A stretch of DNA of 64,000 nucleotides, from positions 1,612,001 through 1,676,000 of the forward strand of contig NZ_CP018911.1 in NCBI RefSeq assembly GCF_004000605.1, given 5' to 3'. The notes below the pieces were generated by a model. The model ran no database searches, had not been told where the DNA came from, and worked only from the letters and a program-made list of their open reading frames with translations. This document shows positions 4,297-18,224 of this stretch, piece by piece. Position 1 is the first letter of the stretch; the number at the start of each line of letters is the position of its first letter. Source of the DNA: Glycocaulis alkaliphilus. Lineage in GTDB: Bacteria; Pseudomonadota; Alphaproteobacteria; Caulobacterales; Maricaulaceae. The translations under genes were made by a program, and so were the position numbers.

Positions 4297-5919
4297 ATGC
4301 GCGGACAGATGATGGCTATGCCACTGACCATTCATTCACTGATCGACCACGGAGCTCGCTACCACGGCGACACCGAGATTGTGTCGGTGGAAACAGATGG
4401 CACAAAGACTAAGACGAACTGGAAAGGTATTTCTGACAGATCCCGGCAGCTCGGCTCGGCGCTGACAAAGATGGGGCTCTTCAAAGGGGATCGCGTGGCG
4501 ACGATCGCGTGGAACAATGCGCGGCATCTAGAATGCTACTTTGGCATTTCCTGCTGTGGAATGGTATGTCACACGATCAATCCGCGCCTTTTCCCGGAAC
4601 AGCTTGTCTATATCATCAACCACGCGAAAGATCGGGTCATCTTTTTTGACAAGACGTTCCTGCCGATCATTGAGGGGATCAAGGAGAAGCTGACGACTGT
4701 CGATACCTTCGTTCTTATGTCCGTGCGTGATGAAAAAGCAGCAAGAAAAATCCCCGGACTTGTGTTCTACGAGGACTTCCTGGCCTCGGGCGACGAAAAC
4801 GCCGATTGGGTGGATGTCGATGAGAATGATGCATCCAGCCTTTGCTATACTTCCGGGACTACAGGAAACCCCAAGGGCGTTCTGTATTCGCACCGCTCTA
4901 CGGTGTTACATTCGTTGGGCGCGGCCCTTCCCGATACGCTGAACATTTCAGCACGCGAAGTGATGATGCCCGTGGTTCCGATGTTCCACGTCAATGCCTG
5001 GGGCATCCCATATGCTGCTGCGATGGTCGGCGCAAAGCTGGTCCTGCCTGGTCCGGGACTTGATGGTGACAGCCTTACACGGCTCATCGACGACGAAGGC
5101 GTGACGGTCGCGCTTGGTGTTCCTACAATCTGGCAGGGGCTTCTCGCATCGCTCGACAAACTCGGCTCCAAAGCCGAAACCCTCACACGGACAGTGGTCG
5201 GTGGGTCGGCTTGTCCCCCGTCGATGATCGCCGAATTCCGCGACAAATATGGCACCGAAGTCGTGCACGCCTGGGGCATGACCGAAACCTCGCCTCTCGG
5301 GACCGCGAATGCCTTGCTGGAACGCCATGCAGGCATGACCGAGGAAGAGCAGGCGAAAGTGCGAGAAAGCCAGGGCCGCCCGCCCTATGGCGTGGAACTC
5401 AAGATCGTTGACGATGAAGGCAGCACACTTCCCGAGGATGGGGCGGCGCAAGGCAATCTTCGCATTCGCGGCCATTGGGTCGTAGACAGCTATTTTGGTG
5501 CGGAGCCAGGCACGACTTTGGCATCCGATGGATGGTTTGAAACCGGCGATGTGGCCTCGATTGATGCCGATGGGTTCATGACGATCCGGGATCGCTCCAA
5601 GGACATCATAAAATCTGGCGGCGAATGGATTTCCACCGTCGAACTTGAGGGCATCGCGGTCGGTCATCCCGGTATCGTGTATGCCGCCGCAATCGCGGCA
5701 AAACATGAAAAATGGGACGAACGGCCGGTCCTTGTCGCGGTCAAGGCACCAGGAGCAAAAGTGTCAGAGAAGGATTTGATTGCCTTCTTTTCTGACAAAG
5801 TCGCCAAATGGCAGATCCCGGATACGGTCGTTTTTGTGGATGAACTTCCACGAAACGCAACCGGTAAGGTGCTGAAGAACAAGCTGCGGGAAGCCTATGG
5901 GGACGTGCTTCTGGCATAG
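4297..5919 (+). CDS. alkK: Medium-chain fatty acyl-CoA synthetase AlkK (540 aa)
   Basis: Activates the fatty acid made from the alkane to its CoA thioester, for beta-oxidation. The AMP-binding motif [20 protein letters not shown] is complete. Further motifs are [30 protein letters not shown] and the C-terminal [13 protein letters not shown] with the catalytic Lys. I chose the first ATG because the N-terminus MRGQMM parallels the MLGQMM start I recall for GPo1 AlkK, and GAAGAGGAAG precedes it at good spacing. The similarity to GPo1 AlkK seems to run end to end. Confidence 0.95.
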
Positions 5920-6013
5920 CCTGAAATCAGGCAAGCGGGTTTGCGGATCGCATGTTCCGCCTGTTTGCGACCGCGCATAGGGCGCGAAAAAAACGACCAA
6001 AAGGGAGGAATAA

Positions 6014-6700
6014 ATGAAACAATCTAATGTAAAATCCAAGGGGCCTTTTGCCTCGAAGTTTGTGTTAATCACGATGATCGGTGGCTTTTCGTCGTTCAGC
6101 GTCGCAAATGCGGAACCGCTTTACTCCAAGGGCGACTGGCTTTTTGGCCTGAATGCGGCGAAAGTATTCACGAACGAAACGTTGGATTCAATCAGCGCGG
6201 GCGGTGCGCCAATACCCGGGGCTGGTGTCAATATCACCGATGACACCACGCTGAGTTTCGACGTTTCCTATTTTTTGAATTCATCTGTAGCGTTGAACTT
6301 CTTTGGTGGTTTGCCTGCCAGCGCTAATCTTGCAGGGAGCGGCAGTTTGGCAGGACTGCCTGTTGGAGAGACGGAATATGGCCCTGCTGTTTTGTCGCTT
6401 CAATATCACTTTTCGACTAATTCATCCGTTAGCCCTTATGTTGGTGCCGGTATCGCTCGAATCTTGTTTCTGGAAGAACAAGGGGATGCACTCGCGGACT
6501 TCGACTTGAAAGACGCCTGGGCGCCCGCTGTCCAAGTTGGAATGCGCTATCAAATGAGCGATAATTGGTTTGCCAATGCCGATATACGTTACACGCCATT
6601 CGAAACAGATATCTCTGGGACACTCGGCGGGGCGCCAGTCAGAGGCAAGATTTCGGTGGACCCAACAATTCTCAATATCGGTATTGCCTACCGGTTTTAA
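6014..6700 (+). CDS. alkL: Outer-membrane alkane uptake protein AlkL, OmpW family (228 aa)
   Basis: Eight-stranded OmpW-type beta-barrel that lets hydrophobic substrates cross the outer membrane. A signal peptide ends near residue 34 (SFSSFSVANA-EP). Conserved OmpW/AlkL stretches follow: GDWLFGLNAAKVF, ITDDTTLSFDVSYF, GPAVLSLQYHF, SPYVGAGIARILF, KDAWAPAVQVGMRY and the C-terminal GIAYRF ending in Phe. AGGGAGGAA precedes the ATG. It is the last gene of the alk cluster. Base composition is clearly less GC-rich than the later chromosome (31 of 60 bases are G or C in 6061-6120), consistent with transfer. Confidence 0.93.
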   Translation: MKQSNVKSKGPFASKFVLITMIGGFSSFSVANAEPLYSKGDWLFGLNAAKVFTNETLDSISAGGAPIPGAGVNITDDTTLSFDVSYFLNSSVALNFFGGLPASANLAGSGSLAGLPVGETEYGPAVLSLQYHFSTNSSVSPYVGAGIARILFLEEQGDALADFDLKDAWAPAVQVGMRYQMSDNWFANADIRYTPFETDISGTLGGAPVRGKISVDPTILNIGIAYRF

Positions 6701-7314
6701 GCTATTATTGCTAGAAGAGCTGGCAAGGAAAGTGAGTAACAAAAACTCGAAAAGCAAGCTCTTGGAGATGTGAGGAAACGGGCCCGACCTCAGAACGAAG
6801 CGGACACGTATTGCGTGACTGACCTGAGCTCCACGCGGCAGAGTTTATTCTGGGAGTCTCACCTTATTTTTTGGCCGCCCCTAAAAGTGCCCTCATTCAG
6901 GGCTGGAGTATTTGGCGCTTCCTTACCTCTACGGGCTGGCTCTAACGAGGCGATCCATCAGTGCTGGTTCAGGCATTTTGCCCTGAGCCGGCCATTGAAT
7001 GACTCGATGAAAAGTCATTGTCTGTCGTAAGCGCCACACTGCTCCCCTCGTGCGGCGCATGAGGTGAATGTGGCAAGAGTCCGCCGATCGTTAGAGTCGG
7101 ACGGTCCAATTGGGAGCAGACGGCAAAATGGACGTCCTGAGGCGCCCCCAATGGGTTCCGAGATTATTGGGAGAGTCCGTTGGTTGAATAGCTCAAAGCG
7201 TGTTGGTTGGCGAGCGCGCCGAGCCCGGAGCCATCCCAAAGCTCAGGCGCTCGGCGCGCGCCTGTCGGCGTGAGGCCGCGGGTGCAGCAGGTCATCTAGC
7301 CCGAGCGCGCGTTG
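6701..7314. other. Gene-free stretch after alkL
   Basis: No convincing coding frame, RNA or terminator was found. Short open frames here have no recognisable motif and no ribosome site. The DNA lies between the alk cluster and an insertion-sequence relic, so it is probably decayed mobile-element or recombination debris. Confidence 0.5.
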
Positions 7315-7943
7315 TGCCCGTGCGGCTGCGGCGAGATGGCCAGGATTGGCCAGGACGTCAGCGAACGGCTGACGCGCCTGGAATGACCGCAAGGACCGTG
7401 GAAGCTCGTCCAATGCTGGGTCCATCTGCGCCGAAGGTTCGTGAAGCTGGCGCGCAACACCAAGTCCCCGATCGCCGAGGCCGCCGTGCGCCAGTTCACT
7501 AAGCTATACGCCATTGAGGCGACGGTGCGAGGAATGACGCCACAAACTCGGATCGCCGCGCGACAACGGCACTCCTCCCCGATCATAGCCGCCTTGAAGC
7601 CCTGGTTTGAAAAGCAATTGTCAAGGGTCTCCTCCGGCTCTAAGCTGGCCGAAGACATTCTCTAAGGTCTTGCCCATTGGGAAGGGCTCACCCGCTTCCT
7701 GGCGATGGCCGGCTCGAGTTCGATACCAACCCGGTCGAAAACGCCATCCGGCCGATATGCCTAATCAGAAAAAATGCCCTGTTTTCTGGACACGAGATCG
7801 CGGCCGAAAACTGAGCGCTGCTCTCATCCGTCGTGGCCACCTGCAAGCTCAACGACGTTAATCCCATTGCCTACCGCGCAGATACCTTCGACGCCATCAT
7901 CAACGGCCATCCGCAGAGCCAGATCGAGGAACTCATGCCCTGA
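7315..7943 (+). pseudogene. IS66-family transposase (TnpC) relic
   Basis: Three frames together give recognisable IS66 TnpC pieces. First is a zinc-ribbon segment, PCGCGEMARIGQDVSERL (7318-7371). A stop at 7384 and then DGPWKLVQCWVHLRRRF follow almost at once, so the DDE catalytic core between them is deleted. Next is SPIAEAAVRQFTKLYAIEA through RVSSGSKLAEDI, a stop at the expected Arg-Tyr, and GLAHWEGLTRFL. After a frameshift near 7700 comes RLEFDTNPVENAIRPICLIR. The expected Trp in AAENWALLSS is a TGA at 7812, and the frame ends at the natural terminus HPQSQIEELMP. It cannot encode an active transposase. Confidence 0.85.
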
Positions 7944-7992
7944 CGATTCCGGAAAATGTCATGCCTAAATCCGTAGGCGATCGGCGAGGCGC

Positions 7993-8274
7993 TTACTGTC
8001 TGTCGGTTTTCCGGGCCGTGAGGCGTCCAGCGTCACATTGTTTGGATGTGCCTATAGGTCGAAGTTCACGGGAGATGAACTCAGAGCCTTGGTCGACCCG
8101 GATCGTCTTCGGATAGTCAATCTTGCCGCACACAAGGTCGAGTTCATCTGACTTTAATCCGGTCTTTACAACGAACACCCACGCGGATTCTTTCGGAACT
8201 GTCGTCCAAAAATCGATGCCAGCTTTCCAGGCAACCTCAAACTGCTCCGGCCCGAGCGAGGAGTACGCAAGCAC
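7993..8274 (-). pseudogene. IS3-family transposase (OrfB) relic
   Basis: On the minus strand the segment YPKTIRVDQGSEFISREL matches the integrase-core region of IS3-family OrfB proteins. An extra base then shifts the frame near 8061. In the shifted frame the sequence continues DL-stop-AHPNNVTLDASRPGKPTDS, where the family has DLWA, so a TAG at 8052-8054 replaces Trp. The protein ends without the final catalytic Glu region and abuts the IS66 relic. The element is truncated at both ends, and no terminal repeats are visible. Confidence 0.8.
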
Positions 8275-8824
8275 GTCCCGCTTTCTTGACTAAAAACCGA
8301 TCGGCGCACCAGCACTTTTCATCGTCGAGACGCTTTTGGCGCCGAGAGGTGACCAGACGTCGGGTGTCACCTTTCCCCTGCAATACACCTTTTTAAGTCC
8401 TCAAAGCTTGTGGCCAGCCTCGATTCCATTGGGCACCCCCGTCAAGCGTCCTGCATCAGGTCAATTCATCAGTAATGGTGATACGCGATGAAGCCGCAGC
8501 CGGCCAGTAGAAGTTCTTTCCATTTCCAAATGAAGTGCCTCGCCCCTTGTTCCCGGCTAACGCCGGGTGACTTGGACGACACCTGCCGGACCTTGAAACC
8601 GTCCTTCCGAAGAATTTTTCCCGCCTCTGCGCGGCTCCTCCTGGATCATGTGTGGACACCCTGCGACCTCCGTATCAAATGGCTTCCATTCCAGCCAACA
8701 ACCGAAAATGTTAATGTCATCATAGTGCTATCGCGTAGCAATAGTGCCCACCTTCATCCCGCACGGCCCGCCATTTTCTTCTAAAAAGCACTTATATTTC
8801 ATATCAATAATTGTTTTCAATATT
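8275..8824. other. Gene-free stretch before the integrated element
   Basis: The part near 8280-8350 can be read on the minus strand as ...GAKSVSTMKSAGAPIGF, which may be a further faint IS3 OrfB remnant. The rest, including an AT-rich piece at 8780-8824, holds no supportable gene. No tRNA cloverleaf was seen at the element boundary. Confidence 0.4.
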
Positions 8825-8835
8825 TTCCAGTATAC
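8825..8835. repeat. Candidate left attachment repeat (attL core)
   Basis: TTCCAGTATAC is repeated exactly at 17503-17513, just upstream of the integrase start. The right copy continues GTTTTGGC; the left copy continues GTTAGGC after an extra 12 bases. Attachment upstream of an outward-facing int start fits P4-type integrases. The repeat is short and could instead be a regulator half-site. Confidence 0.4.
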
Positions 8836-8905
8836 ATTTCGATATACGTTAGGCAGTCTGGCCGGGCTGATCCCCCTCACTTTGGGATAAAAAGGAGAAC
8901 CCGCC

Positions 8906-9283
8906 ATGACCGCCGCGAATCTGTTTATCGACCGCCAGCCTCAAGCCTTCGCCAACGCGCATGCCGACTATCTGGACGCCCAGGCAGCGTTCGTTCGTGT
9001 CCATGCGGGGCCGCATACCCCTGAGGCGAGTGACGCCAGCGTAGAGCGCAAGCTGGACGCCCAGCGGGCCATGTACACCGCCCCGGCGCGCTCGCTCGAT
9101 CAGGTGCTTGTGAAGATCCGGGACTTTCTGGCCACTGAGGCGCCCGGCTCGCTCGATGAATGCCAGCGCCGGTTGCTTGGCGCCATTGCCGACGATGTAG
9201 AGGACTTGGCGACCGGCCGCCGCTATGTCGGCCCGGACACACCGGAGGTTGTCGCGTTGCGAGGCGTTCAACGGATCGCGTAA
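8906..9283 (+). CDS. Hypothetical protein at left end of the element (125 aa)
   Basis: No family recognised. The protein is soluble, mostly helical in appearance and rich in Ala, Asp and Arg, with no signal peptide or membrane segment. The start is well supported by AAAAGGAGAAC 6 to 8 bases before the ATG. It faces the tape-measure gene tail to tail, 50 bases apart, and is the only + strand gene of the element. That end position is often used by cargo or accessory genes in satellites, so defence or interference roles are possible but unproven. Confidence 0.6.
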   Translation: MTAANLFIDRQPQAFANAHADYLDAQAAFVRVHAGPHTPEASDASVERKLDAQRAMYTAPARSLDQVLVKIRDFLATEAPGSLDECQRRLLGAIADDVEDLATGRRYVGPDTPEVVALRGVQRIA

Positions 9284-9332
9284 CCCGGCACCTGCCAGAA
9301 AGTCGAAAGGGCGCTCCGCTGGAGCGCCCTGT

Positions 9333-11561
9333 TCACCGTCCAAGCCGCCCGTGCTGCCGCTTCTGCATATCAGCGGAAACTGCGGATCGGCTAACTTCCA
9401 CAGCTTGGTTCCCTGCCGCTTGCGCCATAGGTGCAGCCCTCTCATCAACAGCGGTGTCAAAATACGGGCTGGCATCTACCTTAACCACTACCACGCGCTC
9501 TACCACGCGCTCGCGCGAAGCAGCGGCCCCGCTCACCTGCCCCGCAGGGATAATGTTGCCGGGCACAGATGGGGCGAATATCTCTCTTCCTCGCTCGCCT
9601 ACTGCATAAGCCATGCCGGGTCGAACTGCCCCGCCAGTAGCCTTCCCACCGCCGAATCCCAGCATCTTTCCAACGCCGCTGAAAATTCCGCCTGCGCCGC
9701 CACCGCCACCGCCTGCGCCGGCAAACAATCCGAACAGTTGATCTGCGAGGGCGTCCAGCGCGCGACTCAGACCTCGCGTGGCGGCATCGCGCATCCAGTT
9801 GGAGAAAGCCTCTTTCGCATTCCCATCCAGAGCGCCCAGCAAGCCGTCTCTGAATGCGGTGCGGAAAGCGTCTCTAAACTGACCTTGATCGATAGCGGCC
9901 CGCATCGCGTCCACCTCTCCCGTGGCGACATCTGTAGCCTCTCCCGTGGAGAAGCCGGCGGCCGTGAGTTGCGCTATCCGGGTCCGGATTTCCAGCTCGC
10001 GTTCCAGCGAACGAACAAGTCCTTCATCACCGCGCGCACGGGCCAACGCCAGGTCAATTTCCAGCTGGCGAGCCGAAAGCTCTAGCCTTGCTTCAATCAG
10101 CTGGTTCGCACGTTCCTGCGCCCTAGCGTCGTCTTCCAACCCGTGCAGGCGAGCCTGATCAGCCCGGGCGGTCGCTTCGGCGTCTGATATCTGTGCGCGC
10201 CTGTACGTTTCGATCCGGGATAGCGTGTCGAGTTCACGCTGAGCGCGCCTTGCGGCATCGCTGTCCCCACGCGCTTCTGCCTCGGCCAATTGCAGTTGTA
10301 GCGCTAGCTGCTGGCGGGTAACGGCCAGAGCACGGCCCCGTTCTGCTTCGAGGTCAGTCTGGCCTGCACCTGCACCGGACCCTTCAGCCGCGCCGGAGTT
10401 TTGCTGCGGCGGTGCGCGCCTGATGGTCGCGGCCAACACCAGAAGCCGCTCGGCAACCGCGTCATCAATCGTGCGTCCGTAGTCAATACCGCGCGCCTCA
10501 CCTGCTCGCATGTGCGTTATGATCTCACCGATGCGTTCGCTCTCTTGTTGCGCACGCTCGCCACCCAGCGAGTAACGCAGGGTGGCGCGTATCTGGGCTT
10601 CGCCGCCGCGATCAGTCGCGCTGATATTGCGGTTCAAAAGCTGGGCTGCCCGGCCTTCCAGAAGATCCGCTGCCTGCATCGAGTCTGACTGTGCGATACC
10701 CCCACCCATACCGAAGGCACGCGCCAGAGCTGCCCCGACATTAATGGCGGCGGCCTGAACTTCACCCAGCATCCGCGCCATATTCTCAAGCTCGCTGACA
10801 TTGCTCAGAATGGCCCCGTTGAGCTGTGTCTCAATAATCTGGCGCATCTCTCGTAAACGGGCGTTCGCGTCGGCGCCCTGCCTAACCATGTCGTTGCCCA
10901 GCACACCCCCAGCCTCCCGCAGCCGTTCTGCGAACTGAGCAACGCCCTCCGAGCCGCGACGGAATAGGCCCACCAGGCGGGTGCCTTCCGTGTCAAATGC
11001 GCGATTTGCCAGCAGCAGCGCTTCCTGATTTGACTCCGCGTTGGCGATCGCGTCCGCGTAATCCATCAAGACATCGTAGCTCGCCCGCAAATTGCCGTTG
11101 GAATCCCTCAGTTCAATATTGTGCCTTTGCAGCATGTCGCGCAGCACGCCAGTGCCCTCAGCGGCCTCTGCGGTTCGCCGGGCGAAGCGCTGGAGCGCCA
11201 TGTCCATCGTCGCTGCACTGGCGCCTGTCTGATCCGCGCCGTAGCGAAGCTCCTGCAGCTGCTCAACGGTCACGCCAACCCTATCGGCAGTATCCTGCAA
11301 GGTCTCTGCAAGGTCGAGCGCGCCATTCGTTGCCTCAGTGAATGCCCTCACAGAGAGCCCTACCCCGAGCGCGCCAAGCGCAACGGTCGCCCCGCGCTGC
11401 AGGCGCTGGAAACCCCGGTCAAGATTGGCGTTCATTGATTGAAACCGGCGTTCGATTCGCCGCGCCCCGGCGTTTGAAGCGCCCACGGCCTTGTTCAGAG
11501 CCGCATCTAGCCGGTTCATGCGCGCGTCGATCTGGGCGAGCAAAATGGCGTCATCACTCAT
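9333..11561 (-). CDS. Phage tail tape-measure protein (742 aa)
   Basis: Tape-measure proteins set tail length and line the tail tube. Seen here: an N-terminal region with ALNKAVGASNAGARRIERRF and the hydrophobic stretch GATVALGALGVGLSV; long Ala/Arg/Glu-rich coiled-coil blocks in the middle (about residues 380-560); a glycine run (GAGGGGGGAGG) near 640; and the C-terminal GGAVRPGMAYAVGERGREIF, a common tape-measure ending. It lies 138 bases after the capsid gene with none of the usual connector or tail-tube genes between. The length is modest for the family and suits a short or remodelled tail. Confidence 0.8.
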   Translation of the reverse strand: MSDDAILLAQIDARMNRLDAALNKAVGASNAGARRIERRFQSMNANLDRGFQRLQRGATVALGALGVGLSVRAFTEATNGALDLAETLQDTADRVGVTVEQLQELRYGADQTGASAATMDMALQRFARRTAEAAEGTGVLRDMLQRHNIELRDSNGNLRASYDVLMDYADAIANAESNQEALLLANRAFDTEGTRLVGLFRRGSEGVAQFAERLREAGGVLGNDMVRQGADANARLREMRQIIETQLNGAILSNVSELENMARMLGEVQAAAINVGAALARAFGMGGGIAQSDSMQAADLLEGRAAQLLNRNISATDRGGEAQIRATLRYSLGGERAQQESERIGEIITHMRAGEARGIDYGRTIDDAVAERLLVLAATIRRAPPQQNSGAAEGSGAGAGQTDLEAERGRALAVTRQQLALQLQLAEAEARGDSDAARRAQRELDTLSRIETYRRAQISDAEATARADQARLHGLEDDARAQERANQLIEARLELSARQLEIDLALARARGDEGLVRSLERELEIRTRIAQLTAAGFSTGEATDVATGEVDAMRAAIDQGQFRDAFRTAFRDGLLGALDGNAKEAFSNWMRDAATRGLSRALDALADQLFGLFAGAGGGGGGAGGIFSGVGKMLGFGGGKATGGAVRPGMAYAVGERGREIFAPSVPGNIIPAGQVSGAAASRERVVERVVVVKVDASPYFDTAVDERAAPMAQAAGNQAVEVSRSAVSADMQKRQHGRLGR

Positions 11562-11699
11562 TTTCGGCCCTTTCCTGAAAAAGCGGCGGTCCAGAGACTT
11601 TCGCGACCTCTGAACCGCCTGTCTTGCGCGGACAAGCTGGAAGCTAGGAGAAGAGCCTCAGCCACTCGCGGCGACTAACCCGCCATCCGCGCAAACTGG

Positions 11700-12917
11700 T
11701 TATGCCGCGCTGAACTTCATCACCTTGATGGCGCGGGAATCGACTACCCCGCCACCGGTGCGCTTGGTGGTGTAGAACTTCACCCAGCCTTTAAGGGTGT
11801 AGGCATCGCGGAGAACGTTCAGTCCCGTGCGGTCCACGATGCAGTAGCCGCGCTGGAAATCGCCAAACGCGATGGCCTTGGAACCGGATGCGATATCCGG
11901 CATGTGTTCGTCGATCTCGACCGGATAGCCCAGAAGCGTCGAAGGCTGGCCCGCCGCAGTCGATTGCTGCCAGAGGTAGTTCCCCTCGCCGTCCTTCATT
12001 TTGCGGACAGTGCCGGCCGTTTTCGAGTTCATGAGCCAGGACGCGTTGACCCGGTATTCGGCATTGAGGCTGTAGACCATATCCGCCAACCGGTCGGCAG
12101 GCAGAACGCCGGTCGACACAGCCTCGAACGCTCCGTCATTGCCAGAAAGGACATGCTGGAGCGTGCCCAGAGGACGTTCGGCATCGATATCCGCGCTTGT
12201 GTCGTAGGTCAGGAAGCCCTTGGGCTTCGCCACCCCGTTTCCGTTGACATAGGCGGCGTCTTCCAGCTCCCCGAGCGTGCCCTGAATGTCGTCACTGACA
12301 AACACCTCGATGTCGAAAGAGGAGTCGTCGAGAAGACGTTGCGTGACCTTCGGCTCGGCATAGGTTTCGAAAAGCGGGATGGTGATTTTCGACATGCCCG
12401 CGCTTTCCGTGCCACCGCGCTCCTGTGTTTCACCGACCCAGCCCCCGGCCTCGGCGCGTTTGCTGGTGAACAGGATTTCAAACTCGCTGCCCGCGTTTTC
12501 CATCAGCACCGTGCGAGACAGCCGGCGCATCGCGGAACCGTTGCGCGCGAATTCAAAGATCACCCGGTCAATCTCTGGCGTGACAGTGAAGCCGCCTTTG
12601 CTGTCCTGCCCGACGCTCATGGAGTTTTCCGGCGCATGGCCGGTGATGTAAGCCGCCAGCGGCTTGAGCGTTTCGGCGTGGGGTGTGCCGGTGCCGCCAG
12701 AGGCGATCCGGGCACGGGCAGACATCTTGAAGGACCGGTCAAGTTCGGCCTTCACTGCATCAAGTTCGGCCTTCTGTGCCTTGATGTCGGAGGCGAGGGC
12801 CTGAATGGCCTTGAGCGCCTTTTCCGGGCCATCGCCCGCGGCGGCCGCTGCTCCGTTCGCCATTACCGGCGAAACCGCCAGAAAGCGGGATGCAGTCGAT
12901 TTGAGTGCGTTTTTCAT
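11700..12917 (-). CDS. Major capsid protein, HK97 family (405 aa)
   Basis: Forms the icosahedral head shell. The first 75 residues are helical and rich in Lys, Glu and Ala (KALKAIQALASDIKAQKAEL), like the delta/scaffolding domain that the prohead protease removes. The HK97 core follows from about residue 100, with GGFTVTPEIDRVIFE, ETYAEPKVTQRLLDDSSFDIE, FVSDDIQGTLGELEDAAYVN, LLGYPVEIDEHMPD and FGDFQRGYCIVDR. It starts 3 bases after the protease stop, the usual protease-capsid pairing. The gene appears intact. Confidence 0.92.
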   Translation of the reverse strand: MKNALKSTASRFLAVSPVMANGAAAAAGDGPEKALKAIQALASDIKAQKAELDAVKAELDRSFKMSARARIASGGTGTPHAETLKPLAAYITGHAPENSMSVGQDSKGGFTVTPEIDRVIFEFARNGSAMRRLSRTVLMENAGSEFEILFTSKRAEAGGWVGETQERGGTESAGMSKITIPLFETYAEPKVTQRLLDDSSFDIEVFVSDDIQGTLGELEDAAYVNGNGVAKPKGFLTYDTSADIDAERPLGTLQHVLSGNDGAFEAVSTGVLPADRLADMVYSLNAEYRVNASWLMNSKTAGTVRKMKDGEGNYLWQQSTAAGQPSTLLGYPVEIDEHMPDIASGSKAIAFGDFQRGYCIVDRTGLNVLRDAYTLKGWVKFYTTKRTGGGVVDSRAIKVMKFSAA

Positions 12918-12920
12918 CGT

Positions 12921-13751
12921 CTAACCTTTCAGGATCTCGGCCCGGATCGTCTCGATCTCGCGGGCCAGTTGGTGCCATTCTTCGTCTTGTGGAGTACCGC
13001 TCAGCGCCGCATATCCGCCCGCCGCAATCGCGGTTGCCGCAGCCTTGGCGAAGCCCAGCTCGCGCAGGGAGCGCTCAAGATCACGCTTTGACTGAGGCGT
13101 GCACGTTGCCCGGTTTGCCGGGACCGGCTCCGGGTCAGCTTCCCGGTCAAGAAGCCGGTCAGCAAAGCCGAGTTCGACCGCCTGGTCGGCGCTCATCCAC
13201 GTCTCTGCCTTCATCATCGCCATGACAGGATCAACGCCCTGCCCGGAGCGTTCGGCGTAGGTGCGGGCTAGATCCCCGTCGATTTGCTCAAGAAGGTCCG
13301 CCGCCTCCCGCAATCCATCCGCATTGCCCAGGGCGATAATCCACGCGCAGTGGATCATCAGGCGGGCATTGCGGGCGATGCGGATATCTTCCGCCGCCAT
13401 GATGAGGACCGACGCTGCCGACGCCGCCACGCTCATCACTTCGACCCTCACGGGCTGACGGTGCTCGCGCAGCAGATTGTACATCGCCACACCTTCCCAG
13501 ACCTCGCCGCCAGGCGAGTTCACCTGAAGCGTGACGGGCAGGCTTCCGGCCTCCGCCAGCATCCCGGCGAGGGCCTTGGCGGTAACGCCGCCGTGGCCGA
13601 TTTCCTCGAAGATCCGGATCACGGCCCGGCCGTTCTCGTTGCTCAGCGAGAAAACGGGATTGGCGACACCGGCAAGGCTCATCTGCTGCGAAAGCCCTTT
13701 CGGCTTCGGCGGCAAGGCGATGGCAGACGGACGATTGAAGGGGAGTTTCAT
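12921..13751 (-). CDS. ClpP-type (S14) prohead protease (276 aa)
   Basis: Head-maturation protease expected to trim the capsid protein N-terminus. The ClpP fold shows in LQVNSPGGEVWEGVAMYNLL, the nucleophile region VMSVAASAASVLIMAAEDI with the catalytic Ser, and ARLMIHCAW with the catalytic His. The C-terminal third (after DRLLDREADPEP) is variable and may act in scaffolding. Its ATG overlaps the stop of a preceding 65-codon frame as ATGA, and the capsid gene follows directly. Length and position fit ClpP-type prohead proteases of siphophages. Confidence 0.88.
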   Translation of the reverse strand: MKLPFNRPSAIALPPKPKGLSQQMSLAGVANPVFSLSNENGRAVIRIFEEIGHGGVTAKALAGMLAEAGSLPVTLQVNSPGGEVWEGVAMYNLLREHRQPVRVEVMSVAASAASVLIMAAEDIRIARNARLMIHCAWIIALGNADGLREAADLLEQIDGDLARTYAERSGQGVDPVMAMMKAETWMSADQAVELGFADRLLDREADPEPVPANRATCTPQSKRDLERSLRELGFAKAAATAIAAGGYAALSGTPQDEEWHQLAREIETIRAEILKG

Positions 13752-13945
13752 GGCGTCACCGTGGTTGAGGTCAAAGACGGGTGACGGCGCAAGGTGCGCC
13801 GCCGCTCTGCGTCCAAGGCCCCAGCATCGCGCCGGTGACTCTGGTGGTTTGTGGCGGACCCAGCATCGCGCCGGTATCCGCCCACCCGAATCACCTGCAC
13901 TGATCCGGGTTTCTGCGTCAAGCGTGGTTTGTGTTTATGTTCCAT
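13748..13945 (-). CDS. Possible small protein upstream of the protease (65 aa)
   Basis: The frame ends in an ATGA overlap with the protease start, which suggests translational coupling. It is very basic and contains the block RRDAG twice, 13 residues apart, from a 17-bp direct DNA repeat. Only a weak AGG ribosome-site candidate precedes the ATG, and no family is recognised. It may be a real small regulator or only a leader. Confidence 0.35.
   Translation of the reverse strand: MEHKHKPRLTQKPGSVQVIRVGGYRRDAGSATNHQSHRRDAGALDAERRRTLRRHPSLTSTTVTP
13820..13875. repeat. Pair of 17-bp direct repeats
   Basis: CCCAGCATCGCGCCGGT occurs at 13820-13836 and 13859-13875, a 39-base period that keeps the reading frame of the overlapping small gene. 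Two copies only, so not a CRISPR. Confidence 0.7.
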
Positions 13946-14046
13946 TGGTGAACCTAAGTGGTGAAAATCATTTCAATTGCTGACTTGCGCGAGAAGTGTT
14001 CCCCCGCCGGTCCCGCGCGCCTCGCCGCCAGAGATTTGACCCCCCC

Positions 14047-15084
14047 CTACCCACCGTCATTGCCCCGCAGTGGGACCGGCGGCGCGCCCTCCGGGGTGAT
14101 TGCGTGGAAGAACTCAGCCAGGTGCGTGCCGTATCGTTCGGCCAGGTGGCGGGCATGGAATGGGCACTGGCAGGTCAGCACCCTGCCATCCTTGGAAACG
14201 CCGCAACGGTTGAGGTCACGCACTCGCGCCTCGCGCCCGATTTTGGCGTCCATTGACGCGCGCCACTGACCGTTGAGGGCAAGCGGATGCGCTTCCCGCT
14301 TGTCGCCCGTATCGCTCCCGCCCTCTGGCCTTCCTGCCAAGCCCTTTGCGATGTTTCCGCCAGCACTGGCCGGTCCGGGCTGGCGAGACAGTCCCGCCAT
14401 CGCCTGTTGGCTGAGAGGTGCAGCTTTGCCGTTTCCGCTGGCAGGCTCGGCGCCGCGTGTAGCGCCTGCCTCATCCGGCTGCCCGCCCCGCCCCGTTTCG
14501 GTCAAAAGGGGATCAGGGGATTTATCGTAAGAAAGACTCGTAACTGCATCGACATCAGTGATCGATGGCCCATCGACCGTATGAGGGTCGATAGCCCTAT
14601 CGACTGCACGGTCGATAGGGTATGGCGAGACTTCACCTTGCAGGACAGTGGATGCTGGCGGAATATCGAAAGCACCCCGAGTGCGCTTGCGTTCGGCCTT
14701 GAACTCATCAAACGATTTGGCAGGTGTCTCGCCTGCCTCGCGTTCATCCCCTACATCAAGGCGAACCCTGTAAGCGCATGGTTTATCGCTTCTATCGGGC
14801 CTGCGCACCTGTACCCATCCCAGCCACTCCAGCCGAGCGAGCGCGCGGTTCACACCGTCATGGCTCATCTGCACCACTGACGCGATGCGCGACTGGCGTA
14901 TGGGGTAGGTCCAGCCCTTGTTATCGGTGTAGGTGCCAATGGCCGACAGCACCAGGTAATCGCCGTGCGTCATCAGCTTGGCCACTACATCGGCAATCGC
15001 CCCCGCTGGCGTTATCGCCATGCGGGGGCCGCCCCGGCCCTTTGGCCGGCTTTCGCTATTGGTGCTGGACGATCTATCCGCCAT
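14047..15084 (-). CDS. Winged-helix replication-initiator-like protein (345 aa)
   Basis: The N-terminal 110 residues look like the winged-helix domain of phage and plasmid replication proteins: MTHGDYLVLSAIGTYTDNKG, then YPIRQSRIASVVQMSHDGVN and RALARLEWLGWVQVRRPD. The middle is low-complexity and is encoded by the iteron-like array at 14547-14620. The C-terminal part ends with a Cys-containing stretch (VLTCQCPFHARHLAERYGTHL). The start shares a base with the stop of the upstream gene (TGATG). The role as element-specific initiator is inferred from domain, neighbours and embedded repeats; a pure regulator is the alternative. Confidence 0.65.
   Translation of the reverse strand: MADRSSSTNSESRPKGRGGPRMAITPAGAIADVVAKLMTHGDYLVLSAIGTYTDNKGWTYPIRQSRIASVVQMSHDGVNRALARLEWLGWVQVRRPDRSDKPCAYRVRLDVGDEREAGETPAKSFDEFKAERKRTRGAFDIPPASTVLQGEVSPYPIDRAVDRAIDPHTVDGPSITDVDAVTSLSYDKSPDPLLTETGRGGQPDEAGATRGAEPASGNGKAAPLSQQAMAGLSRQPGPASAGGNIAKGLAGRPEGGSDTGDKREAHPLALNGQWRASMDAKIGREARVRDLNRCGVSKDGRVLTCQCPFHARHLAERYGTHLAEFFHAITPEGAPPVPLRGNDGG
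14547..14620. repeat. Iteron-like cluster of TCGA motifs inside the rep-like gene
   Basis: Six related blocks lie within 74 bp: CATCGAC (14547), ATCGAT (14561), CATCGACC (14571), GGGTCGATAG (14585), CCCTATCGAC (14595) and GTCGATAGGG (14611). The last two form a perfect 10-bp inverted repeat around TGCACG. Iterons inside or next to an initiator gene are common origin architecture, so this is the best origin candidate of the element. Confidence 0.55.
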
Positions 15085-15455
15085 CAGTGCAACGGCGTCT
15101 CCGGCCTGCTCTCGAATGCCGTGATGGCCATCTTGAGCTGGTCTAGTGCGCCGGGATGCATCTGCCCCTTTTCAACGAGGCTGGCCGCTATCCCCAGCAC
15201 CGCCTGGGCTTCGATCAACACCCGCATCCCCTCGCTGTTTTCCGAGAGGTGAGCGGTCGCTTGCAGACCCTCTGCCACTTCGAGGGCCATCACCACGCCC
15301 CGCGCCTGGGCGCCCAGCATGGCAAGGGCGTTTATCGAGACGAAGGTCTTGCCTCCCGCCTTACACATTGTGCGGCTGGCGAACTGTTCTGCCAGCATGG
15401 CCAGAACTTCCGGTGGGGCACCGCGCGTGATCCGTTCCAGAAACGGCCCCATCAC
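15084..15455 (-). CDS. Hypothetical protein of the element's early operon (123 aa)
   Basis: Not recognised. It is a compact helical protein, rich in Ala, Leu and Met, without membrane segments. Its start overlaps the alpA stop (ATGA) and its stop overlaps the rep-like start, so it is translated as part of the alpA-rep unit. That position suggests a role in replication or regulation of the element, but nothing in the sequence shows a mechanism. Confidence 0.65.
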   Translation of the reverse strand: MMGPFLERITRGAPPEVLAMLAEQFASRTMCKAGGKTFVSINALAMLGAQARGVVMALEVAEGLQATAHLSENSEGMRVLIEAQAVLGIAASLVEKGQMHPGALDQLKMAITAFESRPETPLH

Positions 15456-15643
15456 GCCGCCTCCGCATCGCGTTCAGCGATACGCTCGCTTGCCCACGTC
15501 TCTATCTCCGCCTCTGGCCAGCGCACGCAGCTAGGCCCGATTTTGACCGGCCTTGGGAAGCGGCCTTCACCAATCCAGCGGTAGAGGGTTGCGGTTGAAA
15601 TACCGACGCGGCGTTCAACATCGCGGCGTTTCAGAAAAGCCAT
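15452..15643 (-). CDS. alpA: AlpA-family excisionase/transcriptional regulator (63 aa)
   Basis: Small MerR-like winged-helix DNA-binding protein. The whole length fits the family: FLKRRDVERRVGISTATLYR, then WIGEGRFPRPVKIGPSCVRW and a helical tail (EAEIETWASERIAERD). AlpA proteins of P4-like islands activate integrase expression and act in excision. It sits two genes downstream of int and heads the overlapping unit with the next two genes, as in many satellites. Whether it acts on int, on excision or on the rep unit cannot be told here. Confidence 0.88.
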   Translation of the reverse strand: MAFLKRRDVERRVGISTATLYRWIGEGRFPRPVKIGPSCVRWPEAEIETWASERIAERDAEAA

Positions 15644-15699
15644 GACCGGCCCCTTTCATGCGTAAAAAACTACGTATGAGAGGGTGGCGGAATGCGGCG

Positions 15700-16239
15700 C
15701 TATGTATTCCCCGGAGTTTCGTGGTTTTCAGAGGATAAGGCGGTTGCGAGTTTCGCATGTTCGTTTTTGGCTTCGTAATACCAACGCTCTGCCACCGATG
15801 CCGAGACCGCGAATTTCTCACCTACCGCAGCAAACAGCGCTTCTCCGATAGGGTCGCCATCTTCGCTGCGCCGCCGGATTTCCAGATACACAGCGAGCGC
15901 CTTCTCGCGCCGCATACGCAGGCTATGGAGTTGCTTTCCTTTGCCGATCACAGGTCCGAAAACGTCATCCAAGCTCTTTTCGCGGCGCGTTAGAAGTTTG
16001 TCATAACGCGTTATGAATGCTAGGGATAACCACTCTGGCGCAGGCATTTCATGGGCACAGCATATCCGCAATGCTGCGAGTATTGCGATGTTGTCGCCAG
16101 CTTCGAAGGCACCGCGCTCGGCTTCTACCCGCGCCGCCGCATGAAACTGGTACAGTGGGCCAGACCATGACGGGTTTCCCCCCAGCTCCCATTGGCGCTG
16201 AGCTGCCAGAAGCCCTGCCATTTCGGGATCATGCTCCAT
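15700..16239 (-). CDS. Hypothetical protein between int and alpA (179 aa)
   Basis: No confident family. It is charged and helical, with ITRYDKLLTRREKSLDDVFG and a C-terminal AVGEKFAVSASVAERWYYEAK that looks like a helix-turn-helix used for DNA recognition. It overlaps the integrase stop by 11 bases, so it is co-transcribed with int. A regulator or primase-accessory role would fit the position but is speculative. Confidence 0.6.
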   Translation of the reverse strand: MEHDPEMAGLLAAQRQWELGGNPSWSGPLYQFHAAARVEAERGAFEAGDNIAILAALRICCAHEMPAPEWLSLAFITRYDKLLTRREKSLDDVFGPVIGKGKQLHSLRMRREKALAVYLEIRRRSEDGDPIGEALFAAVGEKFAVSASVAERWYYEAKNEHAKLATALSSENHETPGNT

Positions 16240-17491
16240 TGCGTCCCCCGATCTCGATCACGTTGCCCGGCCGGACTTGTGGCGGTGTCAGGGCGAACCG
16301 CGCCCATGCGTCCATCAGGTCGCGGCGGCGTTTCAGCGCGTCCATGCGCCGGTAAGCCTTCTCGGCCTTGTTTCGAATGGTATGCGCCAGAGAAAATTCT
16401 ATCAGGTCGCGCGGAAAAGCGGTCTCCTCGCCTGCCCAGTCGCGGAACGTGCTCCGGAAGCCGTGAACAGTGGCCACCCTGCCGCTTATCCCCATGCGCC
16501 GCAAAACGGCGCTCAGCGTCATGTCAGACAGGGGCGCCTTGTCCCGGTTCGGGCTGGGAAATATCAACCCTTCGCCGCCCATCGTTTCGGCCATCGCTTT
16601 CACGATTTCCACCGCGCGAGCGGTTAAGGGAACCGAGTGCGTCTTGCCTGCCTTCATCCGCTCGCCGGGAATGGTCCAGACGGCGTTCTCAAGGTCGATT
16701 TCATCATGGCGGGCGCCGCGCACCTCGCCAGATCGCGCCGCCGTCAGGATCACGAATTCCAGCGCCAGGGCGGCAACGCCGGTGCGTTCTTTCAGCTTCT
16801 CCATGAAAGCAGGCAGGTCATCATAGGCCATCGCAGCGTGGTGGCGCTTCTCCGCCTTGGCTTTAAGGCCGTCGCTAGGCAACAGGTTCCTAAGGTGGCC
16901 TCTCCAGCGCGCCGGATTCGGTCCCTCGCGCTGGCCCATGGCCGCTGCCCAATCAAGAATGTTCTCGATCCGGCCACGCACCCGCCGGGCCGTCTCGCGC
17001 TTTTTGTTCCACACCGGTTCTAGCGCCTTGAGAACGTGGTTTGTCTCGATCTGGTCAACGGGCAGGTCACCAAAGTGCGGCCATGCGTAGTCGCGAAGGC
17101 TGGCCGTCCATTGCGCCGGGCTTTTTGGATTGGCCCATTTCGGCGTCTGGGCAGATATGAACCGCTTGCTGGCATCGCGAAAGGTCAGGATGGCCCGCAA
17201 ACGCGCTTCCTGCGCTGCCTGAGCTTCGCGCCGGGCGTCAAGAGGGTCTATCCCCTCGTGGAGCTGCTTTCGCGCTTTCACGGCCTCATCACGGGCGTCT
17301 GAGAGCGAAACGAGGTCCACCGGACCCAGCCCCATCATTCGCGCCTTGCCGCGCAGCGTGTAGCGTAGCACCCAGCTCTTGCCGCCAGTCGGGCCGATCT
17401 TGAGATACAGGCCGCCGCCGTCCGGATAGAATCCGGACTTACCCGCCTTCTCGACGCCCTTGGCGCTCAGCCTGTGTTGCGCTCTGACCAT
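16229..17491 (-). CDS. int: P4-type tyrosine recombinase (integrase, 420 aa)
   Basis: Integrates and excises the element. The N-terminal DUF4102 arm-binding domain is clear (FYPDGGGLYLKIGPTGGKSW). The catalytic domain shows TAARSGEVRGARHDEIDL with the first Arg, RMKAGKTHSVPL with the Lys, VHGFRSTFRDWA (His-x-x-Arg), and LAHTIRNKAEKAYRRMD with His and the Tyr nucleophile. The full catalytic set is present, so it is probably active. The ATG lies 12 bases from the candidate attachment repeat, with int reading into the element as usual for P4-like islands. Confidence 0.95.
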   Translation of the reverse strand: MVRAQHRLSAKGVEKAGKSGFYPDGGGLYLKIGPTGGKSWVLRYTLRGKARMMGLGPVDLVSLSDARDEAVKARKQLHEGIDPLDARREAQAAQEARLRAILTFRDASKRFISAQTPKWANPKSPAQWTASLRDYAWPHFGDLPVDQIETNHVLKALEPVWNKKRETARRVRGRIENILDWAAAMGQREGPNPARWRGHLRNLLPSDGLKAKAEKRHHAAMAYDDLPAFMEKLKERTGVAALALEFVILTAARSGEVRGARHDEIDLENAVWTIPGERMKAGKTHSVPLTARAVEIVKAMAETMGGEGLIFPSPNRDKAPLSDMTLSAVLRRMGISGRVATVHGFRSTFRDWAGEETAFPRDLIEFSLAHTIRNKAEKAYRRMDALKRRRDLMDAWARFALTPPQVRPGNVIEIGGRNGA

Positions 17492-17502
17492 GCCGGTATG
17501 CG

Positions 17503-17513
17503 TTCCAGTATAC
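17503..17513. repeat. Candidate right attachment repeat (attR core)
   Basis: Exact copy of the 11-bp TTCCAGTATAC at the left border, with a palindromic GTATAC core. No tRNA gene was seen adjoining it, so the insertion target is unknown. Confidence 0.4.
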
Positions 17514-18224
17514 GTTTTGGCCTAGGAATTGATGGTTATTCGCGAGAAGCGTCAAGAACCGTTCAGCGGCGAATCACACGGTTTCATGCGGCGTTTGAGG
17601 CAATATGAGACGAGGGGAGAACCCCCAAGTTCGGACACCCCCTCCGCCATTTCCTTATTGCTATCAATGTATTAGGGTAATTATTGGCTTCCCGGCCAAC
17701 ATGGCGGCCATCATGGCCGGGGCACCGCACACCCGTGGAAGTTCGCATTAACAAGAGGCTTGGTAAGTTTTCCCGTGGCGAGGAACGGCATAATCACGGG
17801 AGTTAGTGCTCAACCCGGCTGTTGCCTTTGCCGGCCAAGCCGGAGTTGTAAGTGGATCGGTGAACGGCCTTGATGGTGTTGGGGTATTTCGCGGCTGCTT
17901 TCTCAAGCTCCATTTAACCGGCAAAGCAGCCCGCCCCTTCCGGGCAGTGCTTTTTGATGAAGCCGCCCGCAATCGATGGGTGCGCAGCCTCTGGGACCAG
18001 CGCTCCACCGATGCTGAAGCACGCCTGCCCGAGGCGGGCATATCATCACCACGCCAGCCCCGGACCCGGTCGCCGCGCCCGTGGCGGCGGCCCGGAAAGC
18101 GGCATATGACACCGGTTGCACCGGACCGGGAACCAAGGCACTCTTTGCTTGCCGGTCCTGAATTCCCATCAGGTATGCCGGACACCCGGTTTTAAACTCC
18201 GCACACAGGGACCGCCGACGGCAC
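17514..18224. other. Intergenic region between the element and zwf
   Basis: No supportable gene. Long open frames on both strands at 17750-18200 have no motifs and carry codon patterns typical of noncoding GC-rich DNA. The only clear signal is the TGACACCGGT operator at 18107. The left part may be remnant host DNA displaced by the integration. Confidence 0.5.
18102..18121. promoter_or_regulatory. LacI-type operator before zwf (site 1 of 6)
   Basis: TGACACCGGT at 18107-18116, followed by TGCAC, lies 109 bases before the zwf ATG. It is the same 10-mer found before all the uronate operons in this window, with the central CG typical of LacI-family operators. Confidence 0.7.

Follow-up and report, generated by a model that had tools for sequence, protein, structure and literature searches.

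The element at positions 8768-17653 of the Glycocaulis alkaliphilus window, the whole 64,000-nt stretch analysed here (1,612,001-1,676,000 of a complete 3.02-Mb genome), is likely an integrated phage satellite of a recurring family. In this family, a chassis of integrase (int), alpA and replication (rep) genes carries a shell protein and a tail ruler as its load. The 8.9-kb element encodes a major capsid protein (MCP) and a tape measure protein (TMP). The same unusual combination of genes, cleanly bounded at tRNA genes, is found in diverged relatives, which indicates a recurring element type and not a broken virus. Judged from sequence, the element appears to fit best as a member of a satellite variant, not described before, that encodes a shell and a tail ruler, and a hybrid-virion mechanism is plausible. 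A broader reading is that such elements form a widespread undescribed class, at least alphaproteobacterial and with MCP-only relatives in other groups, which replaces two parts that set virion size, the shell and the tail ruler, and forms hybrid particles with the portal, motor, tube and tip of a helper phage. We put this forward tentatively, as a real possibility that falls somewhat short of probable.

Gene content of the element

Genes were called with a codon-usage caller, given the high-GC DNA, and the element genes were screened against Pfam, PHROGs, NCBIfam and custom profiles (Table 1). The minus-strand order is int, 179-aa gene, alpA, 123-aa gene, rep-like gene, non-coding gap, head protease gene, MCP gene, hairpin and TMP gene; one small plus-strand gene lies beside these at the left end of the element. 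A first-pass annotation made from the sequence had listed int, alpA, a rep-like gene, a prohead protease, a capsid and a TMP, and the profile matches bear this out, with the replication gene assigned on weak matches (1e-4 to 4e-5). The integrase, AlpA and replication genes lie in one compact island bounded by att repeats.

The same annotation had noted no recognised terminase, portal, connector or lysis gene, and this absence held: searches of the element with Pfam, PHROGs, NCBIfam and custom profiles gave no match to a portal, large terminase (TerL), small terminase (TerS), connector, tail-tube or lysis protein. The unassigned genes all encode 179 aa or less and are therefore too small to encode a portal or TerL. 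For TerS, a profile built from four relatives gave a best E-value of 0.14 in the window. Structure models made without an alignment reached a pLDDT of 54 for the 125-aa gene (all-helical, at low confidence) and 53 for the 123-aa gene, which is too low for a fold search.

Table 1. Features of the satellite-like element, from right to left in window coordinates.
Feature	Position	Strand	Evidence or remarks
attR, right end	17636-17653	+	18-bp copy of the tRNA-Ser(tga) 3' end, CACCCCCTCCGCCATTTC
17-bp GTATAC site, right copy	17503-17519	+	12 bp upstream of int
Tyrosine integrase, 420 aa	17491-16229	-	PF22022 (Phage_int_M) 3.5e-28, PF13356 (Arm-DNA-bind_3) 4.4e-22, PF00589 1.7e-13
179-aa gene	15700-16239	-	overlaps int 3' end by 11 nt, like PICMI 'iolg'
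AlpA-type excisionase/regulator, 63 aa	15643-15452	-	PF05930 3.5e-15
123-aa protein (u123)	15084-15455	-	placed as PICMI up1, between alpA and rep
Replication-initiator-like protein, 345 aa, winged-helix HTH_36	15084-14047	-	phrog_270 4.3e-5, HTH_36 1.1e-4 (weak)
Non-coding gap, about 300 bp	13752-14046	-	20-nt direct repeat pair, 13817-13836 and 13856-13875
ClpP-type head maturation protease, 276 aa	13751-12921	-	phrog_1684 3.7e-58, NF045542 1.1e-51
HK97-type MCP, 405 aa	12917-11700	-	PF05065 2.1e-79, TIGR01554 6.4e-94
Strong terminator-like hairpin	11619-11585	-	14 pairs + T run; between MCP and TMP genes
TMP, 742 aa	11561-9333	-	phrog_9483 1.5e-25
125-aa gene	8906-9283	+	no family match; located and oriented like the L108 150-aa gene
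17-bp site, left copy	8825-8841	+	TTCCAGTATACATTTCG; direct repeat
attL, left end	8768-8776	+	matches attR core only over 9 bp, CCGCCATTT; no intact tRNA

Iterons had been described as embedded in rep, where we found only scattered two-copy repeat families; one 20-nt pair lies in the gap between the rep and protease genes. This gap is a candidate origin or packaging site. The hairpin between the MCP and TMP genes is possibly an attenuator and would suit very unequal copy numbers of the two proteins. An alternative start at 13682 is possible for the head protease.

Borders and flanking DNA

The att core is the 3' end of tRNA-Ser and is present in attL and, at 17644-17652, in attR, giving an att-to-att distance of 8876 bp. 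An intact tRNA-Ser(tga) gene is located at 1,578,089-1,578,178 of the same genome. In attL the match covers the 9-bp core only, and a 9-mer is shared by background in 34 of 6371 overlapping 90-bp windows of the sequence; attL may be a secondary or decayed site. Given this short match and the lack of an intact tRNA, the window copy may be stuck.

The 17-bp direct repeats had been taken for the borders of the element in the first-pass annotation, a placement that the tRNA-derived core displaces outwards. The repeats are non-random, as none of 100 shuffles yielded two. We read them as internal because the same-genus relative L108 has the same type of site inside its tRNA-defined ends: TGTATAC...CATACGTT in the same place as the left copy and TTCCTGTATACGTTGCG just upstream of int. 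The spacing is also comparable, with attL 56 bp before the GTATAC site in the window element and 52 bp from the tRNA-Ser end to the site in L108. The 17-bp sites are more likely putative internal operators or integrase/AlpA arm-type sites than borders.

To the right of attR, 17705-17993 is 91% identical to part of a same-genus tRNA-Ser island (L165) and is also related to an island of the element's own genome (L167), and this segment appears to be left over from an earlier insertion. The same-genus genome G008 becomes collinear only from 18090 onwards and has no match to the left flank, which prevented the reading of a clean empty site. Just left of the element, a short minus-strand ORF at window positions 7993-8274 resembles, by eye, part of an IS3-type transposase.

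Elements of the same design in other genomes

A TMP search of 398 genomes of the order gave matches in 25 genomes. Most of these matches belong to complete siphophage regions in which portal, protease and capsid are present, and a set of short loci differs. Recurrence of the block with conserved borders in related genomes had been named in the first-pass annotation as a check on its proposal, and four diverged elements of the same design (L108, L118, L125 and L039; 8.7-10.1 kb) were found with att repeats at tRNA genes. A search for the finding that would have pointed the other way, a full-length prophage containing this gene set, gave none; full phages have only single genes in common with the element, whose nearest relatives are short units with att sites at their ends.

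The nearest relative is L108, of the same genus, with 57% identity in int, 48% in alpA and 42% over the full length of TMP. It is bounded by 14-bp tRNA-Ser repeats (9.57 kb), its int-overlapping gene overlaps by 4 nt versus 11 nt in the window element, and its capsid protein is unrelated (333 aa, with no protease); it also has a small terminase. L118, of the same order, encodes int, alpA, primase, capsid, a phrog_8985 protein, TMP and Neck1 between tRNA-Lys repeats of about 50 bp (9.93 kb). The phrog_8985 protein is listed as a tail tube protein; by inspection only, its place and sequence suggest a tail-assembly chaperone. L125, also of the same order, has int, alpA, capsid, TMP and small terminase between tRNA-Asn repeats of 45-49 bp (8.74 kb). 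L039, from Stakelama pacifica, has int, alpA, rep, small terminase, capsid, tail protein, Neck1 and TMP between 46-bp tRNA-Lys repeats (10.1 kb). The small terminases match phrog_83 at 5.7e-12 (L108), 6.9e-11 (L039) and 5.3e-7 (L125).

Further loci have parts of this design. Three of them, L034 (Ancylobacter; the contig stops within TMP), L296 and L308, have rep or primase, capsid and TMP, with the portal absent. In L041, a deltaproteobacterial MAG, positions 4677-13782 hold int, alpA, primase, helicase, MCP and a weak TerS match without TMP, between perfect 45-bp tRNA-Pro repeats (9.06 kb). The ends of the 9329-bp contig L168 share an overlap of about 87 bp, giving a circle of about 9.24 kb; L168 encodes MCP, TerS, Neck1, int and rep without TMP, portal or TerL, and its MCP is 67% identical to that of L118 over the N-terminal 300 residues. 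Scans of viral contigs with single sequences (rep, TMP, L108 MCP and L118 MCP) gave no match.

Two other genes were considered as guides to relatives. Integrases at about 50% identity sit on mostly non-phage islands in 116 of the 398 genomes of the order, so the integrase is not diagnostic and was rejected as a family marker. Relatives of the 345-aa rep protein (L072-L077) were set aside, as they lie in larger, different loci lacking the capsid module.

Two additional islands were observed. L114:4308-16228 encodes int, an overlapping gene, alpA, primase, helicase, HNH, TMP, a Neck1-like protein and a tail-chaperone-like protein, and no capsid gene was found before the contig end; it is possibly a tail-ruler-only variant. 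In L163 (G092:C30:574600-589600), alpA, TerL and MCP genes are clustered near an integrase belonging to the same clade, forming another capsid-carrying island.

Module exchange and MCP-TMP spacing

Phage remnants are common in genomes generally, and the element might have arisen from a temperate siphophage by deletion of portal, terminase, connectors, tube, tip and lysis genes, with int, alpA, rep, protease, MCP and TMP left behind. The imperfect attL of the window copy would fit this origin, as would the fact that its single parts are phage genes: TMP is about 50% identical to contig L170 at both ends, and the protease is 45% identical to L172. We consider a deletion remnant unlikely because diverged elements with different MCP families have the same layout, size and precise tRNA att repeats, and because their length is confined to a narrow range though their capsids belong to several unrelated lineages.

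The composition of the elements also argues against a remnant. The window element and L108 have int, alpA and TMP in common and differ in their capsid modules, while L118 and L039 have integrases that are 62% identical and differ in their capsids and replication genes. These comparisons establish, at the level of sequence, that integrase, rep and MCP modules have been exchanged between elements. Satellite MCPs occupy several separate tree positions, suggesting repeated capsid capture. By sequence comparison, the MCP and TMP of the window element do not derive from the same phage. Both reading frames are open at about 42% identity, with dN/dS of 0.34 for TMP and a range of 0.34-0.40 for TMP and MCP together, in a comparison where synonymous sites are near saturation; these values mark both genes as being under purifying selection and count against decay.

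MCP-TMP spacing is cleanly bimodal, which likewise counts against a remnant. The two genes lie 45-1203 bp apart in eight portal-less loci versus at least 2995 bp in all other loci compared. Because the searches were seeded with the window element's own genes, similar elements are favoured in the sample; neither the att repeats nor the bimodal spacing rests on this bias. A shortened tail was also considered and rejected, since the TMPs of satellites, 554-808 in length, share the range of those in full phages (roughly 550-950, some longer).

Comparison with known satellites

Satellites described so far fall into two types: some modify the shell of the helper, and others encode an entire head module and take tails from the helper. 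The first-pass annotation had proposed a satellite that supplies its own shell and ruler and obtains the rest from a helper, on the model of capsid-forming PICIs (cf-PICIs). The satellite part of this proposal gained support from relatives of the same architecture with tRNA att sites, and the placement among cf-PICIs was lost. The definition of cf-PICIs comprises MCP, protease, portal, connectors, TerS, TerL and HNH (PMC10690885), and their average length is 14 kb (PMC10803314). The window element resembles them as a small integrated satellite with int, an HK97-type MCP and a head protease, which would need a helper for at least the tail. In contrast to them, it has no portal, connectors, TerS, TerL or HNH, is only 8.9 kb long and has a TMP. 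Membership of the cf-PICIs is not supported.

PICMIs are similar in their small size and in the order int, overlapping gene (iolg), alpA, one gene, replication gene (PMC10803314). They have no capsid or tail gene, encode a DUF3987-type primase and are located at fis (PMC10803314), whereas the window element has an HTH_36 rep-like gene, a capsid module and a tRNA att site; neither the fis site nor a DUF3987/DUF5906 primase was found. PICIs and P4-like satellites have int, alpA, a replication gene and a tRNA or genic att site in about 10 kb, and a phage-like TerS is present in some members of the family described here, as in SaPIs. Unlike the window element, which encodes the shell protein itself, these satellites use small scaffold or redirector proteins to resize or redirect the helper capsid. 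The Mulch and Flayer satellites of Streptomyces also encode their own capsid, but they have TerL, portal and scaffold genes, co-infect with virulent helpers and have no replication genes (PMC10690885). No paper on a satellite with a tape measure gene was found among the open-access papers searched, which makes priority provisional.

A possible route to hybrid particles

Dependence on a helper, the hybrid nature of the particles, their capsid size and the route of packaging are inferred. The element is probably mobile. Its chassis would consist of an integrase recombining at tRNA 3' ends, the int-overlapping gene, AlpA as the excision trigger and a replication initiator. The load would be the shell protein, with its own maturation protease in the window element, and TMP; in relatives this load also includes a small terminase, a protein resembling a tail chaperone, or a Neck1/tail-completion protein. 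A siphophage infecting the cell or induced within it would be the trigger, upon which AlpA and Int would excise the element and rep would replicate it using host or helper machinery. A siphophage-like helper is suggested by the ends of TMP, which match the TMP ends of full siphophages (contig L170 and prophage L109) at 49-57% identity.

The element MCP, trimmed by its own protease, would then assemble on the helper portal. Hijacking of the helper's packaging machinery is proposed because TerL and the portal are absent: helper TerL would drive the satellite DNA in, recognised via the satellite TerS in some relatives and via a helper-like site in the window element. That no TerS was recognised in the window element counts against this scheme. 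Satellite TMP would substitute for helper TMP in tail assembly, joined in some relatives by the chaperone-like or completion protein. The outcome would be a hybrid particle holding satellite DNA, with lysis, tube and tip provided by the helper.

A different use of the same proteins would be defence, with MCP and TMP as dominant-negative parts that poison phage assembly and little or no packaging of the element's own DNA. PICIs and prophages carry tail-assembly blockers (Tai, PMC11364771), helper interference is usual among satellites, and the missing portal and motor would agree with such a device. We think this quite improbable, as the protease retained beside MCP and the TerS of relatives point to productive head assembly and packaging, the integrase, AlpA and att sites point to a mobile lifestyle, and the element gave no match to defence families in PADLOC.

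If the hybrid-particle reading is true, satellites can insert individual components into the assembly pathway of another virus. The docking of a foreign shell on a helper portal, and the effect of a foreign TMP on tail length or DNA delivery, would become testable. The tape measure of siphophage HK97 reportedly acts in genome injection (Cumby et al. 2015); a satellite with its own ruler could thus affect which cells its DNA enters. The MCP-TMP adjacency signature would serve as a simple rule for finding further members.

Portal loci and a second satellite-like element in the same genome

The genome search turned up no resident full prophage bearing an HK97-type portal, which counts against the satellite reading. 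Two HK97-type portals are present, one in a second satellite-like element and one in a gene transfer agent-like (GTA-like) locus. The second element is located at G000:C1:524246-533140 (L273 from 12247, L274 up to 3139) and encodes an HTH_36 rep-like protein, a 120-aa protein, HK97-type TerL, MCP, ClpP-type protease, portal and integrase. Its att repeat is 16 bp (TGGTGGGCCCGGAGGG).

The two elements might form a split system, in which the second supplies portal and motor and a phage supplies the tails. Consistent with this, the second element has a portal and TerL and no tail genes, and its att-to-att distance is 8878 bp versus 8876 bp in the window element. It has, however, its own MCP and protease of a different type, L108, L118 and L125 occur without such a partner bearing an HK97-type portal, and the matching lengths may be chance; we give this arrangement very little credence.

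The GTA-like locus contains MCP and portal genes and is located at G000:C1:2158346-2161656. A gene transfer agent would show a run of portal, protease, MCP, connector and tail genes and lack an integrase and att sites; such a reading of the window element itself was rejected on the presence of int, alpA and att sites.
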